The notes under the pieces are model-generated. The model was not told the DNA's origin, made no database searches, and saw only the letters and a list, made by a program, of their open reading frames with translations. The position numbers were made by a program, and so were the translations under genes. A stretch of DNA of 64,000 nucleotides from Bacteroidales bacterium (GTDB lineage: Bacteria > Bacteroidota > Bacteroidia > Bacteroidales > VadinHA17), in NCBI GenBank assembly GCA_021738535.1, contig JAIPBU010000020.1, positions 1 through 64,000 of the forward strand. Reading direction: 5' to 3'. Within the stretch, counting starts at the first letter, position 1; each line of letters starts with the position of its first letter. Below, piece by piece: positions 45,572 through 54,334 of this stretch.

Positions 45572-46189
45572 TCAGCAACCTCCCTGTGCTCTCTTTTTCT
45601 GAGGTCTCTTTTTGATTGCAGGCAAAACCGGTTCAGGCATTTCATTAGCAGGTTCTATTGAACCACCACCAAGGGCAGCACCGGCTCCCTTACGGAAGTT
45701 ATACCTTGCTATTTCCTCATTTGGACTTGTCTGCTCAGGTCTGTCAGGATTCATAATAGTCTCTGCCCAGTAATTAAGTCCTCCTTCAAGTACATAATTG
45801 TTCCTGTAACCAAGCTGGCGCGTCACCATCCATGCTTCGTTGGAAGTAACAGATCCGTTGGAATAAAAGACATTGATCTTAAGGTTCTGGTCAACCAGGT
45901 ACCTGTATTCATCATCCAGAAGATCCGTGAATGGTATATTTACCGCTCCCGGCAAATGAAATTCCTTATATTCAGACTCAGATCTCAGATCAATGAGCTG
46001 CAGGTTGGGATCCTCTGAGATTATCATGTCTGCAATTTCATCAGGACTGATAAACTGGTAACGTCCGTTAAATTCTTCTATCATTTCTTCAGCAGACATC
46101 TTAAAATTCAGAGTCTTATTATTGGGAATAGCCGCAATGATAAGACCGAGGCTAAGAAAAACAATGCTTATGATAATTCGTGTTCTCAT
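45572..46189 (-). CDS. Exported rhodanese-like domain protein, Ser at catalytic position, C-terminal QGGC
   Basis: Signal anchor; LIDLRSESEYKEFHLPGAVNIPF; VFYSNGSVTSNEAW in place of Cys loop; sole Cys is last residue. Confidence 0.85.
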   Translation of the reverse strand: MRTRIIISIVFLSLGLIIAAIPNNKTLNFKMSAEEMIEEFNGRYQFISPDEIADMIISEDPNLQLIDLRSESEYKEFHLPGAVNIPFTDLLDDEYRYLVDQNLKINVFYSNGSVTSNEAWMVTRQLGYRNNYVLEGGLNYWAETIMNPDRPEQTSPNEEIARYNFRKGAGAALGGGSIEPANEMPEPVLPAIKKRPQKKRAQGGC

Positions 46190-46210: not shown

Positions 46211-46801
46211 CTAATATTCAGGGGCAGGTGTTTTCTTCTCAAACCGTTCTGCCAGCCAGAAAGCTGCAAGGGCCATAACTATGAACAGTAGGGCCATCAG
46301 TCCATCGCTGATGTTGAAGACCTCGCTCAACCTTGGGTACCCCTTGAAGTTTGCCATATACATTTTCTCTATTAACGGGTATCCCTCCGTGAAGATAAGA
46401 ACTCCAAGGAATAATCCTCCGATAAAAACCATCGCATCAATCTTACCTATGGCTGCAGCACACATGCTTGTTCCCGGGCAAAAACCTCCCATTATGAAAC
46501 CCAGTCCCATTATCAGTCCACCAACCACTGCCGATGTGAGGTATGTAGGATTAATATAAACAAGATCAAGGTCTATCCACCCGAAAAGACTCATAAATAA
46601 AAGTCCAATCATGGCTGTAAGACCGGCAGTAAAGAAAACCTTAAGCACAACCGTGTCGTAGCCGTAAAAAAGACCTGCAAGTTTTTTACTTGAAGAAAAG
46701 CCGCTGCTTTCAAGCACCCAGCCAAATCCGATACCAATAATAAATGCCATCAGCAGGTTTGTGTCAGGTGATATTATGTCGTTTACAATTAATGGTCCCA
46801 T
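46211..46801 (-). CDS. YeeE/YedE family (thiosulfate/sulfur transport) membrane protein, half-size
   Basis: GGFCPGTSMCAAAIGKIDAMVFIGG motif. Confidence 0.87.
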   Translation of the reverse strand: MGPLIVNDIISPDTNLLMAFIIGIGFGWVLESSGFSSSKKLAGLFYGYDTVVLKVFFTAGLTAMIGLLFMSLFGWIDLDLVYINPTYLTSAVVGGLIMGLGFIMGGFCPGTSMCAAAIGKIDAMVFIGGLFLGVLIFTEGYPLIEKMYMANFKGYPRLSEVFNISDGLMALLFIVMALAAFWLAERFEKKTPAPEY

Positions 46802-46910: not shown

Positions 46911-47435
46911 TCATACCCAATTTTTCCTGAACAGTCGGGCAAAGGCAAATGCCGTAGCAAAGATTGCCATCATAGTCACTATGCCGCCAACGGAGAAGAT
47001 GGCCATCCCGCTTAAGGCTGAACCGCTGGTGCATCCCCGGCCTATCTGAGAGCCCAGGCCAAACAAAATTCCACCGCCAAGTGCAAATAAAAGTCTCCTG
47101 CGTGAAGTTATCCGTGGGTTGTGCTCAACCTTTAGTTTTAATCTCCCTGCTATTGTTCCCGAAATGAATCCACCCACTATCATGCCAAGTACTTCAAAAA
47201 CAAGCCATGATTTCATTGGTGTGGGATGCGTCTCTTTGTAGGATGAATAAAAATCCGAGCTTTCAACATGTGAGGGAGCAACAGCGTCCACAACAGTTAC
47301 CACACTGGATTTTACCGCCCCGCTTGCACCCAGTCCCCTGCCACTGATAAAATTTGCTGCTATCAGGACCAGCCCAAGCAAAACACCTCCCAGGTAAGGA
47401 TTAATGTACTTTTTTGATTTGTCTTTTTTGGTCAT
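46911..47435 (-). CDS. YeeE/YedE family membrane protein, half-size
   Basis: GSQIGRGCTSGSALSGMAIFSVGGIV motif. Confidence 0.87.
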   Translation of the reverse strand: MTKKDKSKKYINPYLGGVLLGLVLIAANFISGRGLGASGAVKSSVVTVVDAVAPSHVESSDFYSSYKETHPTPMKSWLVFEVLGMIVGGFISGTIAGRLKLKVEHNPRITSRRRLLFALGGGILFGLGSQIGRGCTSGSALSGMAIFSVGGIVTMMAIFATAFAFARLFRKNWV

Positions 47436-47451: not shown

Positions 47452-48393
47452 TTAGTACAGCCAGCGACTTACCTGGCCTGCATTTGCAATTATAAATCTG
47501 AACATTATGCCACCGAATAACACCAGTGTTGCCGGTATTACGGCAGGTATTTTAAACTTCGCCAGTTCAAGAGCTTCAAGTACTGCCGGTAATAATAAGC
47601 CAAGGAATACAACAAAGATCCAGAACTGTGCCGTGAATGGTCCGCCCAGGAAGAGCGATGCAGCATCAATCTGTACCTGTGTGCTTGCCAGGAAGCCCAT
47701 GAACATATGCACAATAAAAAATATTTCCACAATTATCAGTACCAGGTCTATACGCGAAAACAGCAAGCGCTCTTTGTGCGATTTGGAAAAAAGGATTATT
47801 ACAGCAGCACCCGTTGATAGTCCTGATGTCAGGAACAATGGACCCAGGATTGATGTATTCCATAATGGTCTTGCATTAAATGCAGAAAACAGTATGCCTG
47901 TATAAATGCCCAGTATTACCGATAGTACAAGGATCACCCAGGAAATCTTTATTATGTGTTTCCTGCAAAAGGCCTCGAAATCCTTTAACCACCGAAACCT
48001 CCAGTCCCAGTTGGGAAAAATGATCCTTATGTTGAGGGCTGCCCATATGAATGATAGCGGGGTAATTGCAAGAAGTGTCCAGGCACCCCAGGACATAGGT
48101 GATTGTAATTTGATTGTCGTATACAGCCTCCAGAAATATAACTGGTGCTTGAGATCAAGAAACAAGGCAAACAATCCAAGCACTAGAGCAACAGGAGCAA
48201 CAAATGGTGCATACTGCACTGCTCCCTTTAATTCTTTACCCCTGCCCAGGATGGTATAGAGGGCTGCAAAAAACAACACACCTGCTGCCAGCCCGCCAAG
48301 GAAAAGATACAGTGGTATCTGCCAGTGCCATATATGCAGCACAGGGTCAATGTTGGGATTCATTCTTCCGCTTATAATAAGCTCTTCTCTCAT
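47452..48393 (-). CDS. NrfD/PsrC family membrane subunit
   Basis: HIWHWQIPLYLFLGGLAAG; ~9 TM; adjacent to Fe-S and Mo subunits. Confidence 0.9.
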   Translation of the reverse strand: MREELIISGRMNPNIDPVLHIWHWQIPLYLFLGGLAAGVLFFAALYTILGRGKELKGAVQYAPFVAPVALVLGLFALFLDLKHQLYFWRLYTTIKLQSPMSWGAWTLLAITPLSFIWAALNIRIIFPNWDWRFRWLKDFEAFCRKHIIKISWVILVLSVILGIYTGILFSAFNARPLWNTSILGPLFLTSGLSTGAAVIILFSKSHKERLLFSRIDLVLIIVEIFFIVHMFMGFLASTQVQIDAASLFLGGPFTAQFWIFVVFLGLLLPAVLEALELAKFKIPAVIPATLVLFGGIMFRFIIANAGQVSRWLY

Positions 48394-48408: not shown

Positions 48409-48942
48409 TCAGGTTAGGAAAAATATCTGCGGATCAGTACCGGCCTCAGGTATGAGAGTTTTATATTTCCTGTTTTTTATCACCTTTGAGACCTCACTCC
48501 TTGGATCATCAAGGTCGCCGAAATATAAACACTTGGTAGGACACACTGCAACACAGGCAGGATCTTCACCTTCCTTAACAAGGTGTTCACAAAATGTACA
48601 CTTGTCAACATATCCTTCAGGATGAGAATACCTTGCATCATAGGGACATGAAGTAATGCACGCTCCACAGCCTATGCATTTATTATGCTCAACCAGGACA
48701 ATCCCTCCTTCCACTATATGACTTGCGCCCGTGGGGCAACATCTCACACAGGGTGCATTATCACAATGGTTGCATCTTTCTGATCTCAGCTCCATCTCCA
48801 GGTTAGGGTAGCTTCCTTCAACCAGTTCAACAACCCACTCCCGGGCATAGCCGTGAGGAACATTATTCTCAGCCTGGCAGGCCACAACACAGTCGCTGCA
48901 ACCAACACATTTCTTAGTATCTACCGCCATTGCATATCTCAT
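48409..48942 (-). CDS. 4Fe-4S dicluster electron-transfer subunit (PsrB/NrfC-like)
   Basis: CVGCSDCVVACQAEN, CNHCDNAPCVRCCPTGA, CIGCGACITSCPYDAR, CTFC..CVAVCPTKCL clusters. Confidence 0.93.
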   Translation of the reverse strand: MRYAMAVDTKKCVGCSDCVVACQAENNVPHGYAREWVVELVEGSYPNLEMELRSERCNHCDNAPCVRCCPTGASHIVEGGIVLVEHNKCIGCGACITSCPYDARYSHPEGYVDKCTFCEHLVKEGEDPACVAVCPTKCLYFGDLDDPRSEVSKVIKNRKYKTLIPEAGTDPQIFFLT

Positions 48943-51173
48943 GACACTTTCTCGTTTTTAGCAGGCTCAAACCTGAATTTCACAAAATTGCCACGCATAC
49001 CGGTTCCTCCCATAACAGGGTCTGTATGAACCTTTGTTATCAGTTCAGCATCACTGGCACCCTTTCCATAGGCCCTGCTGAGCTTTTTGTTATCATGGCC
49101 AAAACCATGAACCATGAATACCGAATCCCATCGTATCCTTTCTGTTATCCTCACTTTTATGGGAAATTTTGAAACTATCCCGTCCTGGTTCTCAAGATAA
49201 ACTTCCTGCCTGTTTTTAAGGCCCCATAATTTGGCAACCCTGGGATTGACCCAAACAGAATTCTCCTCCATTATGTCAGTAAGGTTAATATTATTGCTGG
49301 TACGACTGAAAGTATGGGAAGGAGCCCTCCCGTAGATCAGCCGATAGTATCCGCGTGGAGGCTCTTCATGGGCTGTATAAACAGGCAGCGGATCAAAACC
49401 TTCCTGTGCCATAGCAGTACTGTATAGCTCAATTTTCCCGGTATTGGTATAAAATTCGAAATCCTCTCCCTCCAGGAAATACAAGGGATATGAGCGCTTA
49501 AATGTTTTGACTCCTTTACTCTTCATTTCTTCAAGTGATGACCCTACCTGCTTAAGCTGCCAGTCAAGCATCTCTTCAATGTTATTCCAGCTGAAGTATT
49601 CTTCAAGCCCGAGTCTTTTTGCCAGCTCCTTTGCCATCCAGTAAGCCGGTTTGGAGTCATATTTGGGTTTTGCCGCCGGCATTCGTACAGCTATGGCCGG
49701 CTCACGGTGAGGACTGTTACGTATAGTATCATATCTTTCAAGGTATGTACATTCCGGCAATACCACATCGGCATAACCGGTAATCTCCATAGGCATTGTA
49801 TCAACTACAACAAGCAGTTCAAGTTCATTAATTGCATCTATGGTCTTTTGCTGATCGGGAAGTGTCTTTAACAAATTGGTGCCGTTAACAATCCACGTTT
49901 TGAAATTACATGCCTTGCTGAGTGAGGGAATGGTAGCATCACATATTCCTGAAGCAATTGTTTCATAAGCAAGGTTGTACTTACCTGGATAAGCATCCTT
50001 CCAGTTTTTCTTTGGTTCAGGATAAGGTGGATGTGGCCAGGATGGTATATCAACCGATTCAGGAACATAAAAACCGCCTCTTCTTCCCCATGAGCCCAGC
50101 AATGCATTAAGAATGGCTATAGCTCGCTCCCTCTGTGTATCATCACCATACCATGTTACATGTCGACCCGGGTGTACGATAACAGACGGAGCAGAATCAG
50201 CCATTTCGCGGGCCGACTCCCTTATAATCTCAGGCTTAAGAGTGGTAATACCGTAAGCCCACTCAGGTGTCATATTTTTTACATGCTCCTTTAAGTAATC
50301 AAACCCATAGGTATATTTCTCAACATAATCCCTGTCATACCAGCCTTCACTGATTATTACATTTATCCATGCCAGAAGCAGGGCCAGGTCAGTGGAAGGC
50401 TTAATAGGTAACCAGTATTTGGACTTACTGGCAGCTGTGCTGTAACGAGGATCAACTGTAATCACAGACGCACCCTTATCTATAGCATCAGACATCTCCT
50501 GTACCTGTCCGTTATGCATATTCTCCCCCAGGTGTGAACCTATCAGGACAAGGCACCTCGTATCTCTTATATCAGTACGTTCAGGGCTTTGTACACCCTC
50601 TCCAAAGGTCATATGGAAAGCCACCTCACGTGGTCCCCTGCACTGGGCATATGATGGAGCAGCTATACTATCCGAACCAAAAGCACGTATCAGGTTGCCA
50701 AAATATTTCCCCCCGGAACCGTGTGTAAGCAAGGCCGTACACTCATTACCATACTTCTCCCCTATACTCTTCATTTTATCAGCTACGTAGTCCAGTGCTT
50801 CGTCCCAGCTGGCCTCTCTAAAGACCTGTTTACCCCTTTCTTCGGTTCTTATAAGAGGCGTCTTAAGCCTGTCCTCGTCATAGTACATACCTGCCCCGGC
50901 TGTACCGCGCGGACAAAAACGTCCGTTACTGTGCTGATCCTCCTGGTTACCGGTTATCTGCTTTATTTTTCCTTCTTTGTCCTGAGATACCCAACCGGCA
51001 CATTTCCAGAAACACACCTCACAATAGGTTGGTGTTCTTGTCATGCCACCGGTAAGCAGGCTGCTCTCATCCTGCAAAAAAGTATTTGTAAAAGCATTAA
51101 TGGCAGGATTGCTCATGACCAGGCCTCCAAGGCCCAGACCCGCTATCTTAATAAATTCTCTCCTGTTCGCCAT
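48939..51173 (-). CDS. Molybdopterin oxidoreductase, thiosulfate/polysulfide reductase-like catalytic subunit (PsrA/PhsA-like)
   Basis: Tat-like RREFIKIAGLGLGG; CEVCFWKCAGWV..GRFCPRGTAG 4Fe-4S motif. Confidence 0.9.
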   Translation of the reverse strand: MANRREFIKIAGLGLGGLVMSNPAINAFTNTFLQDESSLLTGGMTRTPTYCEVCFWKCAGWVSQDKEGKIKQITGNQEDQHSNGRFCPRGTAGAGMYYDEDRLKTPLIRTEERGKQVFREASWDEALDYVADKMKSIGEKYGNECTALLTHGSGGKYFGNLIRAFGSDSIAAPSYAQCRGPREVAFHMTFGEGVQSPERTDIRDTRCLVLIGSHLGENMHNGQVQEMSDAIDKGASVITVDPRYSTAASKSKYWLPIKPSTDLALLLAWINVIISEGWYDRDYVEKYTYGFDYLKEHVKNMTPEWAYGITTLKPEIIRESAREMADSAPSVIVHPGRHVTWYGDDTQRERAIAILNALLGSWGRRGGFYVPESVDIPSWPHPPYPEPKKNWKDAYPGKYNLAYETIASGICDATIPSLSKACNFKTWIVNGTNLLKTLPDQQKTIDAINELELLVVVDTMPMEITGYADVVLPECTYLERYDTIRNSPHREPAIAVRMPAAKPKYDSKPAYWMAKELAKRLGLEEYFSWNNIEEMLDWQLKQVGSSLEEMKSKGVKTFKRSYPLYFLEGEDFEFYTNTGKIELYSTAMAQEGFDPLPVYTAHEEPPRGYYRLIYGRAPSHTFSRTSNNINLTDIMEENSVWVNPRVAKLWGLKNRQEVYLENQDGIVSKFPIKVRITERIRWDSVFMVHGFGHDNKKLSRAYGKGASDAELITKVHTDPVMGGTGMRGNFVKFRFEPAKNEKVS

Positions 51174-51492: not shown

Positions 51493-52725
51493 ATGAAGAG
51501 ATTACTTATTCTTGGAGCCGGTACGGGAGGTACCATAATGGCAAATAAAATGCGCAAGGAACTCTCACGTGAAGAGTGGAAGATCACTCTGGTAGACAAA
51601 GAAAAAACGCATTATTATCAGCCGGGCTTTCTATTTATTCCATTTGGTTATTATAAAAAGGAGGACGTTATTAAGCCGAAGCAGAATTTCATGCCTGCAG
51701 GTGTAGAAATTATTTACCACAACATTGAAAAAATTGAAGCAGGAGAGAATAAAATATTGCTTGAAAATGGTGAAGTAATAACATATGATATTCTCATAAT
51801 TGCAACGGGTACAAGAATTAACCCGGAAGAAACACCCGGGCTTCAAGGCGAACTCTGGCATAAGAAGATATTTGATTTTTATACTGTAGAAGGAGCCCTT
51901 GCCCTGTCAAACTTTTTCAAATCCTGGGAGGGTGGTGAACTGGTCATAAATGTTGCTGACAATCCAATCAAATGTCCTGTTGCCCCACTTGAATTTGCCT
52001 TCTTTGCCGATGCATTTTTCACTGAAAGAGGCATGAGAGACAAGGTAAGTATAACTTTCGTAACACCTCTCTCTGGAGCTTTCACCAAACCAAGAGCTTC
52101 AAAATTACTTGGTGGATTACTGGAGGAGAAAAACATTAATCTTGTAACGGATTATTTTCTTGGTGAAGTTGATAATGACAAGCAGGTTATTACTGATTTC
52201 GGTGGCAGGGAGATTAAATTTGACTGCCTTGTATCCATACCCCTCCACAGCGGAGCAGAAGTAATAGAAAAAAGCGGACTGGGTGATGATTTTGGTTTTG
52301 TGCCGGCAGACAAGCATACGCTGCAATCAAAAGCACATGAAAATATTTTTGTTATTGGTGATGCAGGGAATTTCCCAACATCAAAAGCAGGATCTGTCGT
52401 TCATTTCATGGCCGATATACTCCACGAAAACCTCATGTGTTATATTGAAGGACGCCAGTTTACCGGCAAGTATGACGGTCATTCGAACTGTTTTATAGAA
52501 ACGGGACACGGGAAAGGTGCATTGATAGATTTTAATTATGATACTGAGCCATTACCCGGGTTTTATCCACTTCCGGGTATTGGTCCGCTGGGCTTACTCA
52601 AACAAAGTCGTTTGAATCACTACGGCAAGTTATTTTTCAGGTGGATTTACTGGCATATTCTCCTGCGTGGCAAAGAAATGCCCATAGATACTGAAATGAC
52701 AATGGCAGGAAAAAAACTGGATTAA
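51493..52725 (+). CDS. FAD-dependent sulfide:quinone oxidoreductase-like protein
   Basis: LLILGAGTGGTIMANKMRKEL FAD site; NPIKCPVAPLEFAFF Cys motif; FVIGDAGNFPTSKAGSVVHF. Confidence 0.85.
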   Translation: MKRLLILGAGTGGTIMANKMRKELSREEWKITLVDKEKTHYYQPGFLFIPFGYYKKEDVIKPKQNFMPAGVEIIYHNIEKIEAGENKILLENGEVITYDILIIATGTRINPEETPGLQGELWHKKIFDFYTVEGALALSNFFKSWEGGELVINVADNPIKCPVAPLEFAFFADAFFTERGMRDKVSITFVTPLSGAFTKPRASKLLGGLLEEKNINLVTDYFLGEVDNDKQVITDFGGREIKFDCLVSIPLHSGAEVIEKSGLGDDFGFVPADKHTLQSKAHENIFVIGDAGNFPTSKAGSVVHFMADILHENLMCYIEGRQFTGKYDGHSNCFIETGHGKGALIDFNYDTEPLPGFYPLPGIGPLGLLKQSRLNHYGKLFFRWIYWHILLRGKEMPIDTEMTMAGKKLD

Positions 52726-52737
52726 AAGGATACGGCT

Positions 52738-53421
52738 ATGACAGAAAATAATATGCAACAACAAATAGATCAGATAAATCAGAAGCTGGATCTTATCCTG
52801 GAGGAAGCAGCACTGCAAAAACAAAACAGGGATACTGTTGTAGACCTTGTTGATGACCTTTCAATAGTAGGTAAGGATGCCTTTAAAGGTATGGTTGAAA
52901 GTCTAGATAATGCCGGCATTGAAGTTGACGGGGATGAAATTAACCATATGGTACTTAACATTATCAGGAATATCAGCAATATAAATATGCTCTTCCATAC
53001 AATGGAAAACCTTAGTGACCTGGTTAAGGACCTTTCCCCTATCGTCAGGCAAATGGGTATCGATGCTACGGATAAATTCAATGAATTTGATAAGAAAGGA
53101 TATTTTGAAATACTGAATCAAATCGGTATTGCAATGGACAAGACCATGTCCAGGTATTCAAAAGAAGACATAAAGAATCTTTCTGAAAACATGATTACAG
53201 TAATCGATACAATGATGGCCCTTACTGATCCTGCTGTAATGAGAAAGATTGAAATTTTTGCAACTACTTACAAGGAAATAGATCATGAGTCAGTTCCGGA
53301 GTATTCAATATGGAAGGTTATGAGAGAACTCAATAAACCCGATATGAAGAAATCAATAGGCTTTATTATGACTTTCTTAAAAAAAATTAATTCAGAAAGC
53401 GCTCGTACAGAGAAAGCTTAA
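52738..53421 (+). CDS. DUF1641 domain-containing protein
   Basis: Location after SQR and helical DUF1641-like sequence. Confidence 0.7.
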   Translation: MTENNMQQQIDQINQKLDLILEEAALQKQNRDTVVDLVDDLSIVGKDAFKGMVESLDNAGIEVDGDEINHMVLNIIRNISNINMLFHTMENLSDLVKDLSPIVRQMGIDATDKFNEFDKKGYFEILNQIGIAMDKTMSRYSKEDIKNLSENMITVIDTMMALTDPAVMRKIEIFATTYKEIDHESVPEYSIWKVMRELNKPDMKKSIGFIMTFLKKINSESARTEKA

Positions 53422-53500
53422 TAAAAAACCAGGGCTCATGAGCAGAACGGGTATTTTTGACTCTAAATAATTACAAATTAACAAATTAACAATAACAATT

Positions 53501-53812
53501 ATGGCAACAAAAACTTATGCAGGAGAAACTGTAAACGTAAACGAAGAAGGATATTTTACAGAACCTTCTCAGTGGAACAAAGAAATTGCAAAAGAGATTG
53601 CAAAAGAAGAGGGGATAGATCTCAATGACCAGCATTTTCAAGTACTTGAAATGCTGAGAGAAAAAAACGAAGCCGGAGAAAATCTTTCAATCAGGGGAAT
53701 TAATAAATCCGGAGTAGTGGACGTGAAAACATTTTACCAGTTATTCCCGGGGGCTCCCCTGAAAAAAGCAACAAAAATAGCAGGCATTCCCAAACCTGCA
53801 AGTTGTGTTTAA
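53501..53812 (+). CDS. TusE/DsrC family sulfur relay protein, single-Cys variant
   Basis: DEEGYFTEPSQWN-like N-term and C-terminal GIPKPASCV. Confidence 0.92.
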   Translation: MATKTYAGETVNVNEEGYFTEPSQWNKEIAKEIAKEEGIDLNDQHFQVLEMLREKNEAGENLSIRGINKSGVVDVKTFYQLFPGAPLKKATKIAGIPKPASCV

Positions 53813-53830
53813 TCATCAAAAAATAATAAT

Positions 53831-54334
53831 ATGAGTGATAATAAACATCCTATAAAAAAAGTCAACATTATCTGTGCTAAAGGCAATATTGAAGATATAT
53901 ATGCAAGTCTTGTTATGGGTAATGGTGCTGTGATGGAAGGTATAGAGGCAAATCTTTTCTTTACTTTCTTCGGATTGGAAGGTATAGTAAAAAAATGGAT
54001 GAAAAAGCCCCACACTGCTGTAATAGGTAATCCCGCAATGCGTATGCCCGGGTTGGGCACACGTATGCCCACCCTCCTGGGAGTGATCCCCGGACTGGAA
54101 TCAATGGTTTCAGGAATGATGAGAAAACAAATGGATGAGCTTGATGTTCCTCCAATTGATGAGTTCCTTGACCTTTACACAGCCGGAGGGGGTAAAGTAT
54201 ATGCATGCAAACTTGCAATGGATATGTTCAAAATCAAGGAGGAAGAGCTTACTGATCATGTATCAGGAGTTCTGACAATAGGCGAATTCTATGAGCATGC
54301 AGGAGGAGAAGGATCACAGATAATCTTCACATAA
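53831..54334 (+). CDS. DsrE family protein
   Basis: KVNIICAKGNIEDIYASLVMGNGAVMEGIEANLFFTFFGL..GGKVYACKLAMDMF. Confidence 0.85.
   Translation: MSDNKHPIKKVNIICAKGNIEDIYASLVMGNGAVMEGIEANLFFTFFGLEGIVKKWMKKPHTAVIGNPAMRMPGLGTRMPTLLGVIPGLESMVSGMMRKQMDELDVPPIDEFLDLYTAGGGKVYACKLAMDMFKIKEEELTDHVSGVLTIGEFYEHAGGEGSQIIFT

Follow-up and report, generated by a model that had tools for sequence, protein, structure and literature searches.

Sulfur compounds in the periplasm are substrates of Psr and Phs enzymes and of octaheme cytochromes, and channels of the YeeE family import thiosulfate or sulfane sulfur. The Wolinella protein Sud delivers polysulfide sulfur to Psr and works through the cysteine of its active-site loop, the arm of SoxY is glycine-rich and C-terminal, and DsrC and TusE are sulfur carriers that use an ultimate or penultimate C-terminal cysteine. 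Sulfur is carried by SoxY on the cysteine of this mobile arm (PMC5336275, PMC11237559), while the relay of the YeeE-YeeD system runs through Cys293, Cys91 and Cys22 and then to Cys17 of YeeD on the cytoplasmic side, and natural YeeE-YeeD fusions exist (PMC11073785). PmpB and PmpA keep the equivalents of Cys91 and Cys293, one each, and the donor step to YeeE-family channels is left unresolved in the SoxT paper (PMC11582611).

The stretch analysed here (the window; 64,000 nucleotides from a Bacteroidales genome) encodes a rhodanese-fold protein, RHO, that has features of several of these systems. Like Sud (Wolinella succinogenes, PDB 1QXN), RHO appears to be a periplasmic single rhodanese domain alongside a Psr system, but it has a serine in the loop, its only cysteine at the C-terminal tip and YeeE as a constant partner, such that it qualifies as a Psr-linked periplasmic rhodanese and lacks the polysulfide-binding loop cysteine of the Sud type. 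The layout of an exported carrier with a cysteine on a glycine-rich C-terminal arm is shared with SoxY by analogy, not homology, whereas RHO has a rhodanese fold and its family is membrane-anchored or transporter-fused; no SoxZ-like gene was seen in the RHO operon and no Sox enzymes were seen in the loci. DsrC and TusE differ in being cytoplasmic and in belonging to PF04358 rather than to the rhodaneses. The pairing of YeeD/TsuB with YeeE/TsuA resembles the reading proposed below for RHO, in that a small sulfur-handling protein docks on YeeE and adds a cysteine to the relay, although YeeD has a TusA fold and sits in the cytoplasm at the exit while the Gly-Gly-Cys (GGC)-tailed rhodanese would sit in the periplasm at the presumed entrance. 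PmpA and PmpB match the pair in the window as two half-length YeeE proteins with one conserved cysteine apiece, but no tailed rhodanese is described alongside them in the accessible portion of the source (PMC11582611).

The window gene and its operon

The RHO gene (45572..46189, minus strand; ATG to TGA) encodes 205 residues, laid out as a hydrophobic helix (~2-20), a rhodanese domain (~33-150), a further helix (157-173) and a tail (~175-205) that ends in QGGC. Rhodanese was the sole Pfam domain found (residues 48-143, E 1.5e-17), and within the loop NVFYSNGSVTS the position of the canonical catalytic cysteine is occupied by Ser110 (codon 45860-45862; FYSN, residues 108-111, 45857..45868, minus strand), so that RHO has the fold of a catalytic rhodanese without the active-site-loop cysteine. 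The only cysteine is residue 205, at the end of the tail ...AIKKRPQKKRAQGGC (...KKRAQGGC), and the codons of the Gly-Gly-Cys end (residues 203-205) lie at 45575..45583 on the minus strand, as read from the sequence; the end itself is invariant in A1. An AlphaFold2 model based on 16 homologues consists of the N-terminal helix 2-20, a confident rhodanese fold, the additional helix 157-173 and a low-confidence stretch from ~175, with pLDDT >90 across most of residues 51-170 and <65 in the tail, which in view of the model is presumably disordered. The structures identified with Foldseek are ordinary rhodanese domains (TMt up to 0.80). Export is inferred from the hydrophobic helix 2-20, which is preceded by basic residues and is probably a signal anchor. 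No NCBIfam model exceeded its cutoff for RHO, a weak match to the TsoB selenoprotein model was confined to the rhodanese domain, and a search of a viral fold library gave no relevant match. A terminal TGA-encoded selenocysteine was not noticed among the tails read, which was not a systematic search.

RHO is the last gene of a minus-strand operon with the order PsrA-PsrB-PsrC-YeeEb-YeeEa-RHO. The Psr genes encode a PsrA/PhsA-like periplasmic molybdopterin reductase catalytic subunit (48939..51173; PF00384, E 1.4e-39; PhsA-like NF012032, E 3e-141, below its cutoff), a PsrB-like 4Fe-4S subunit (48409..48942; PF13247, E 1.4e-21; NrfC-like TIGR03149, E 3e-51) and a PsrC/NrfD-like membrane quinol-interacting subunit (47452..48393; PF03916, E 1.1e-41). 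Between these and RHO lie two halves of a YeeE/YedE transporter, the PmpA-like C-terminal half YeeEb (46911..47435; PF04143 positions 170-309, E 1e-21) and the PmpB-like N-terminal half YeeEa (46211..46801; PF04143 positions 4-156, E 1.5e-13), both on the minus strand. YeeEb aligns with the C-terminal half of StYeeE (6LEO) at its GGC, and its Cys135 is the Cys293 equivalent (kept in 186/186), while Cys108 of YeeEa is the Cys91 equivalent (kept in 190/191). Each half thereby keeps one relay cysteine, and these are the two reported as kept in PmpAB-type halves (PMC11582611). The idea that the split YeeE lacks an entrance cysteine was dropped, as Cys293 is on the periplasmic side and Cys22 on the cytoplasmic side (PMC11073785). 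The initial annotation, which had described a serine at the catalytic position, a lone cysteine after QGG at the C-terminus, a probably flexible tail and an operon with two YeeE/YedE proteins and PsrABC-like genes, is borne out on each of these points; the strand, which it left unstated, is the minus strand.

A divergent operon on the plus strand (51493..54334) encodes, based on Pfam and NCBIfam, a type III SQR (51493-52725), a DUF1641 protein (52738-53421), a DsrC-like protein ending in PKPASCV with a penultimate cysteine (53501-53812) and a DsrE2-like protein (53831-54334). It is possible that these products form the cytoplasmic end of the pathway and include a candidate cytoplasmic sulfur acceptor; beyond the window's own genome, linkage of the set to the RHO operon was seen in just a few (L036, L041, L118, L145). 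The SQR exceeds the cutoff of the NCBIfam 'selenoprotein subtype' SQR model (632.8 versus 525 bits) and, since the ORF has no in-frame stop, is probably the cysteine form.

Conservation of the tail and its gene neighbourhood

Matches to RHO occur in 43 of 60 relatives and in 148 of the 393 genomes sampled from the order (E 1e-20), and nearly all of the matches listed align to the last residue. Among 84,980 species genomes scanned, 80 loci were kept (187 relatives); they come from Mariniphaga, Marinifilum, Labilibaculum, Ancylomarina, Carboxylicivirga, Sunxiuqinia, Mangrovibacterium and many MAGs. The GGC end is present in all 80, followed by one extra serine in two of them, and YeeEa/YeeEb and Psr genes lie upstream of RHO in almost all of those with enough contig. 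Across all fetched related loci, distinct stop-terminated rhodanese ORFs numbered 331, and 285 of these have a G-C end (with 0-2 residues after it), most often GGC. In proteins of the window type (R1, n = 164), conservation counted from the end is 100% for the cysteine, 100% for the adjacent glycine and 95% for the next, and at most 29-38% for the following three residues (29% for the position just before GGC); chance or an oddity of one sequence is ruled out by this pattern together with the frequency of G-C ends. Many phylum-wide matches aligned only to about position 195 of the 208 in the profile and yet end in EGC, which shows that selecting for the tail did not create it. The tail cysteine is the sole cysteine in 118 of the 164 R1 proteins, and serine occupies the loop position in 158. 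In the genome of the window, a pattern search for GGC followed by a stop on either strand returned 30 strings, of which the only plausible gene end is the RHO ORF.

In the tail, which had been described as Pro/Lys/Arg-rich, the Lys-rich stretch was rejected as an essential part on finding that proteins linked to octaheme cytochromes mostly lack it and keep GGC; only the G-C end is general. Either a tail peculiar to this sequence or close homologues retaining the active-site cysteine would have refuted the initial annotation, and neither was found, with GGC conserved as above and the loop cysteine absent from 163 of the 164 R1 homologues.

A YeeE half is present in the fetched stretch of 194 of 197 tailed loci (some loci were fetched twice). 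Two of the three exceptions (L065, L130) are at contig ends, and for the third (L259) a wider stretch (L317) contains a full-length YeeE-family protein (E 1e-51); contig-end truncations aside, each tailed locus in the consolidated set has a YeeE transporter next to it. Of the genomes sampled across the order, 145 contain both RHO and the window-type YeeEb, with RHO alone in three and YeeEb alone in six (145/148 RHO genomes and 145/151 YeeEb genomes). No full-length TsuA-type YeeE was found at E 1e-30 across 99 Bacteroidota genomes. PsrA or PsrABC, for which co-occurrence with the tail had also been expected, accompanies 138 of the 197 loci and is not constant; in all 25 loci where the rhodanese is fused to YeeEa, an eight-heme cytochrome stands in place of Psr, and because of this replacement it is the split YeeE, and not PsrABC, that is constant. 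The octaheme cytochrome belongs to the tetrathionate-reductase family in the two cases tested (TIGR04315, E ~1e-171 and 1e-177) and is accompanied by a cytochrome b in the loci inspected. A further set (L060-L064, L252-L255) consists of YeeEb-YeeEa-RHO only, with no reductase in the fetched stretch.

Several other arrangements were observed. In Bacteroidota, the octaheme cytochrome occurs consistently with a split YeeE and a GGC-tailed rhodanese at L178, L180, L189, L193, L237-L251 and L256. A MerR-family regulator, possibly sulfur-responsive, is encoded directly upstream of systems of both the octaheme and Psr types (L193:4774-5232(+), L179:3339-3782(+)). Outside the Bacteroidota, where sampling was limited, Gemmatirosa kalamazoonensis has YeeEb-YeeEa-RHO with a serine loop and an RRRGC end. 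Distant rhodanese lipoproteins with dead loops and G-C tails adjoin a full-length YeeE (G004, G020, G027), while another (L323:1453-1953(-), G010 context) ends in SSGGGCGD, similar to a SoxY arm, and neighbours a double rhodanese and genes labelled by eye as DsrE-like and HdrA-like, with no YeeE within the 3.5 kb fetched. In rare cases the tail is absent from otherwise intact operons, namely from the second rhodanese (RHO2) of L053, L054 and L212, where RHO1 keeps GGC, and from a YeeEa-rhodanese fusion beside an octaheme cytochrome (L066:8663-9844(-)).

Types of tailed protein and concordance of tails

The 285 tailed ORFs were split into R1 (164), a tandem paralogue (R2, 69), double rhodaneses (DBL, 27) and YeeEa fusions (FUS, 25). 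A cysteine at the catalytic position occurs in 1/164 R1, 0/25 FUS and 5/69 R2 (absent from 163, 25 and 64, respectively), for a total of six tailed single-domain proteins, and in 20/27 DBL. A loop-like CxxG motif is found in 33 of the 285 tailed ORFs versus 34 of the 46 untailed ORFs, though these are related sequences and the statistics are only indicative. The predicted co-occurrence of cysteine loss with a C-terminal GGC thus holds in R1, FUS and most R2 and fails in most DBL, on whose account a strict coupling of loss to tail was rejected. Double rhodaneses that were inspected are lipoprotein-like, and those in many operons are probably catalytically competent, with catalysis inferred from the aligned loop cysteine. 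By the same alignments, the suggestion that the fold serves as scaffold and not enzyme would fit R1 and FUS, which lack the loop cysteine, and cannot be extended to every tailed protein given the double rhodaneses and the six single-domain exceptions. The fusions, from 25 genomes, run from a YeeEa half-transporter through a further hydrophobic helix to the rhodanese and GGC; in the two proteins tested, Pfam found PF04143 as well as PF00581, and in an AlphaFold model of a fusion the YeeE half was without confidence.

Among 51 R1/R2 pairs, body identity is 30% within a locus versus 28% across genomes, whereas the tails, with the G-C end removed, are 69% identical within a locus versus 31% between loci (permutation p 1e-4, the lowest value attainable with 10,000 shuffles). 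The tail of R1 is more similar to that of its own R2 (0.69) than to that of the orthologous R1 in the nearest genome (0.53; 0.67 for the bodies), a difference supported both in the full set (Wilcoxon p 1e-4) and in the 43 representatives left after thinning (2e-5), and in L046, L047 and other operons three consecutive proteins have the same tail. Gene conversion contributes to this concordance, and the tail pair of L235 (0.97 identity) looks recently converted; the identical tails of L049 differ at synonymous sites (36-nt identity 0.78), and because such differences exist in some identical tails, recent conversion cannot be the whole reason. The simplest reading of concordant tails on paralogues with 30% identity would be a common docking partner in each genome.

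A putative carrier and alternative explanations

We consider it probable, without strong confidence, that RHO is a membrane-anchored periplasmic swinging-arm carrier of sulfane sulfur or thiosulfonate that delivers to the split YeeE, with its loading inferred. The rhodanese fold, no longer catalytic, would act as a docking scaffold from which a flexible tail of ~30 residues presents the thiol of the terminal Gly-Gly-Cys. Loading of this thiol outside, as a persulfide, polysulfide or S-thiosulfonate, would fall either to the neighbouring sulfur-compound reductase (PsrABC here, elsewhere the octaheme cytochrome of the tetrathionate-reductase family) or to a double rhodanese, probably catalytic, that has an identical type of tail. 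The tail would then offer sulfur where the split YeeE channel opens to the periplasm. As the relay starts at Cys293 on the periplasmic side, a periplasmic tail cysteine would precede it, acting as a 'zeroth' cysteine before Cys135 of YeeEb (Cys293 of StYeeE) and then Cys108 of YeeEa (Cys91), an arrangement that would mirror YeeD, which gives the cytoplasmic 'fourth' cysteine. The architecture, conservation, loss of the loop cysteine, near-obligate linkage to YeeE, fusion and within-genome concordance of tails were observed, while the loading chemistry, acceptor cysteine and direction are inferred; import is favoured because the YeeE family imports, though the direction itself is unproven. The suggestion in the initial annotation of a carrier combining a rhodanese scaffold with a C-terminal cysteine gains support from the loop, the GGC end and the YeeE/PsrABC neighbours, with persulfidation still an inference.

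The tail could instead hand polysulfide sulfur to the periplasmic PsrA, as Sud does, with YeeE merely a separate neighbour. Sud (1QXN) is a profile relative of RHO (E 4e-5), PsrABC accompanies the tail in 138 of the 197 loci and two unrelated kinds of sulfur-compound reductase fill one place in the loci, but it is YeeE that is constant and that takes part in the fusions, L060-L064 and L252-L255 have YeeE halves and a tailed protein with no reductase in the fetched stretch, and the lipoprotein cases adjoin a full-length YeeE without Psr. Since the pattern persists without Psr but not without YeeE, such delivery is less likely than delivery to YeeE, and we regard it as unlikely while not setting it aside. 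Co-encoding of a carrier, a channel and a periplasmic reductase would also be accounted for if YeeE passed cytoplasmic sulfane sulfur outward to the tail for quinol-driven disposal, with Psr or the octaheme enzyme acting on the carrier persulfide as its true substrate. This is very unlikely given that the reductase is not linked in every locus and that characterised YeeE-family transporters import (PMC11073785, PMC11582611).

Roles without sulfur carriage, in which the terminal cysteine gates YeeE by forming a mixed disulfide, or is a ligand for soft metals or selenium species, have a precedent in the C-terminal or near-terminal Cys/Sec motifs of predicted metal- and selenium-handling proteins (reviewed in PMC13188914). 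Most R1 proteins have a single cysteine, however, their partners are sulfur reductases and sulfur transporters, and no metal-transport genes recur in the neighbourhoods inspected, making such a role highly improbable. A basic stretch followed by a short conserved motif at the C-terminus is likewise a feature of some sorting signals, but a sorting or lipidation signal is scarcely credible for a tail kept on transmembrane-anchored, lipoprotein and polytopic-fusion forms, carried by one protein only in the whole genome of the window (among the 30 GGC-stop strings) and followed by one or two residues in some proteins; it was rejected on the three modes of anchoring and the genome-wide uniqueness, and anchoring is an unlikely function of the tail.

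No description of the tails or of the YeeEa-rhodanese fusion was found in a full-text literature search, which did not cover subscription papers, and the family is apparently a large, exported, bacterial one that has gone undescribed. Swinging-arm sulfur carriers and YeeE partners are already known; their combination on a rhodanese scaffold is new. Delivery by RHO to the split YeeE may extend to an unrecognised class of periplasmic carriers, a proposal about which belief and doubt are evenly balanced, in which a terminal swinging arm, and no longer the active site, carries the reactive cysteine of a rhodanese; as many as three proteins of an operon would share this feature, in cis (by fusion) or in trans, and would load YeeE/PmpAB from outside and couple it to interchangeable reductases, placing the octaheme 'tetrathionate reductase' family within a dedicated sulfur-trafficking system.

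In vitro reduction of nitrite and hydroxylamine has been reported for the octaheme tetrathionate-reductase family, and its tie to sulfur trafficking in Bacteroidota offers a gene-context hint to a physiological role that is unsettled. How a carrier hands periplasmic sulfane sulfur to YeeE is an open question, to which the tailed proteins bring a candidate for the donor: a single residue can be tested, natural fusions exist and some hosts are in culture (Labilibaculum, Marinifilum, Ancylomarina, Carboxylicivirga and Mariniphaga). In these proteins a sulfurtransferase fold would have been turned into an arm-bearing scaffold across hundreds of genomes.
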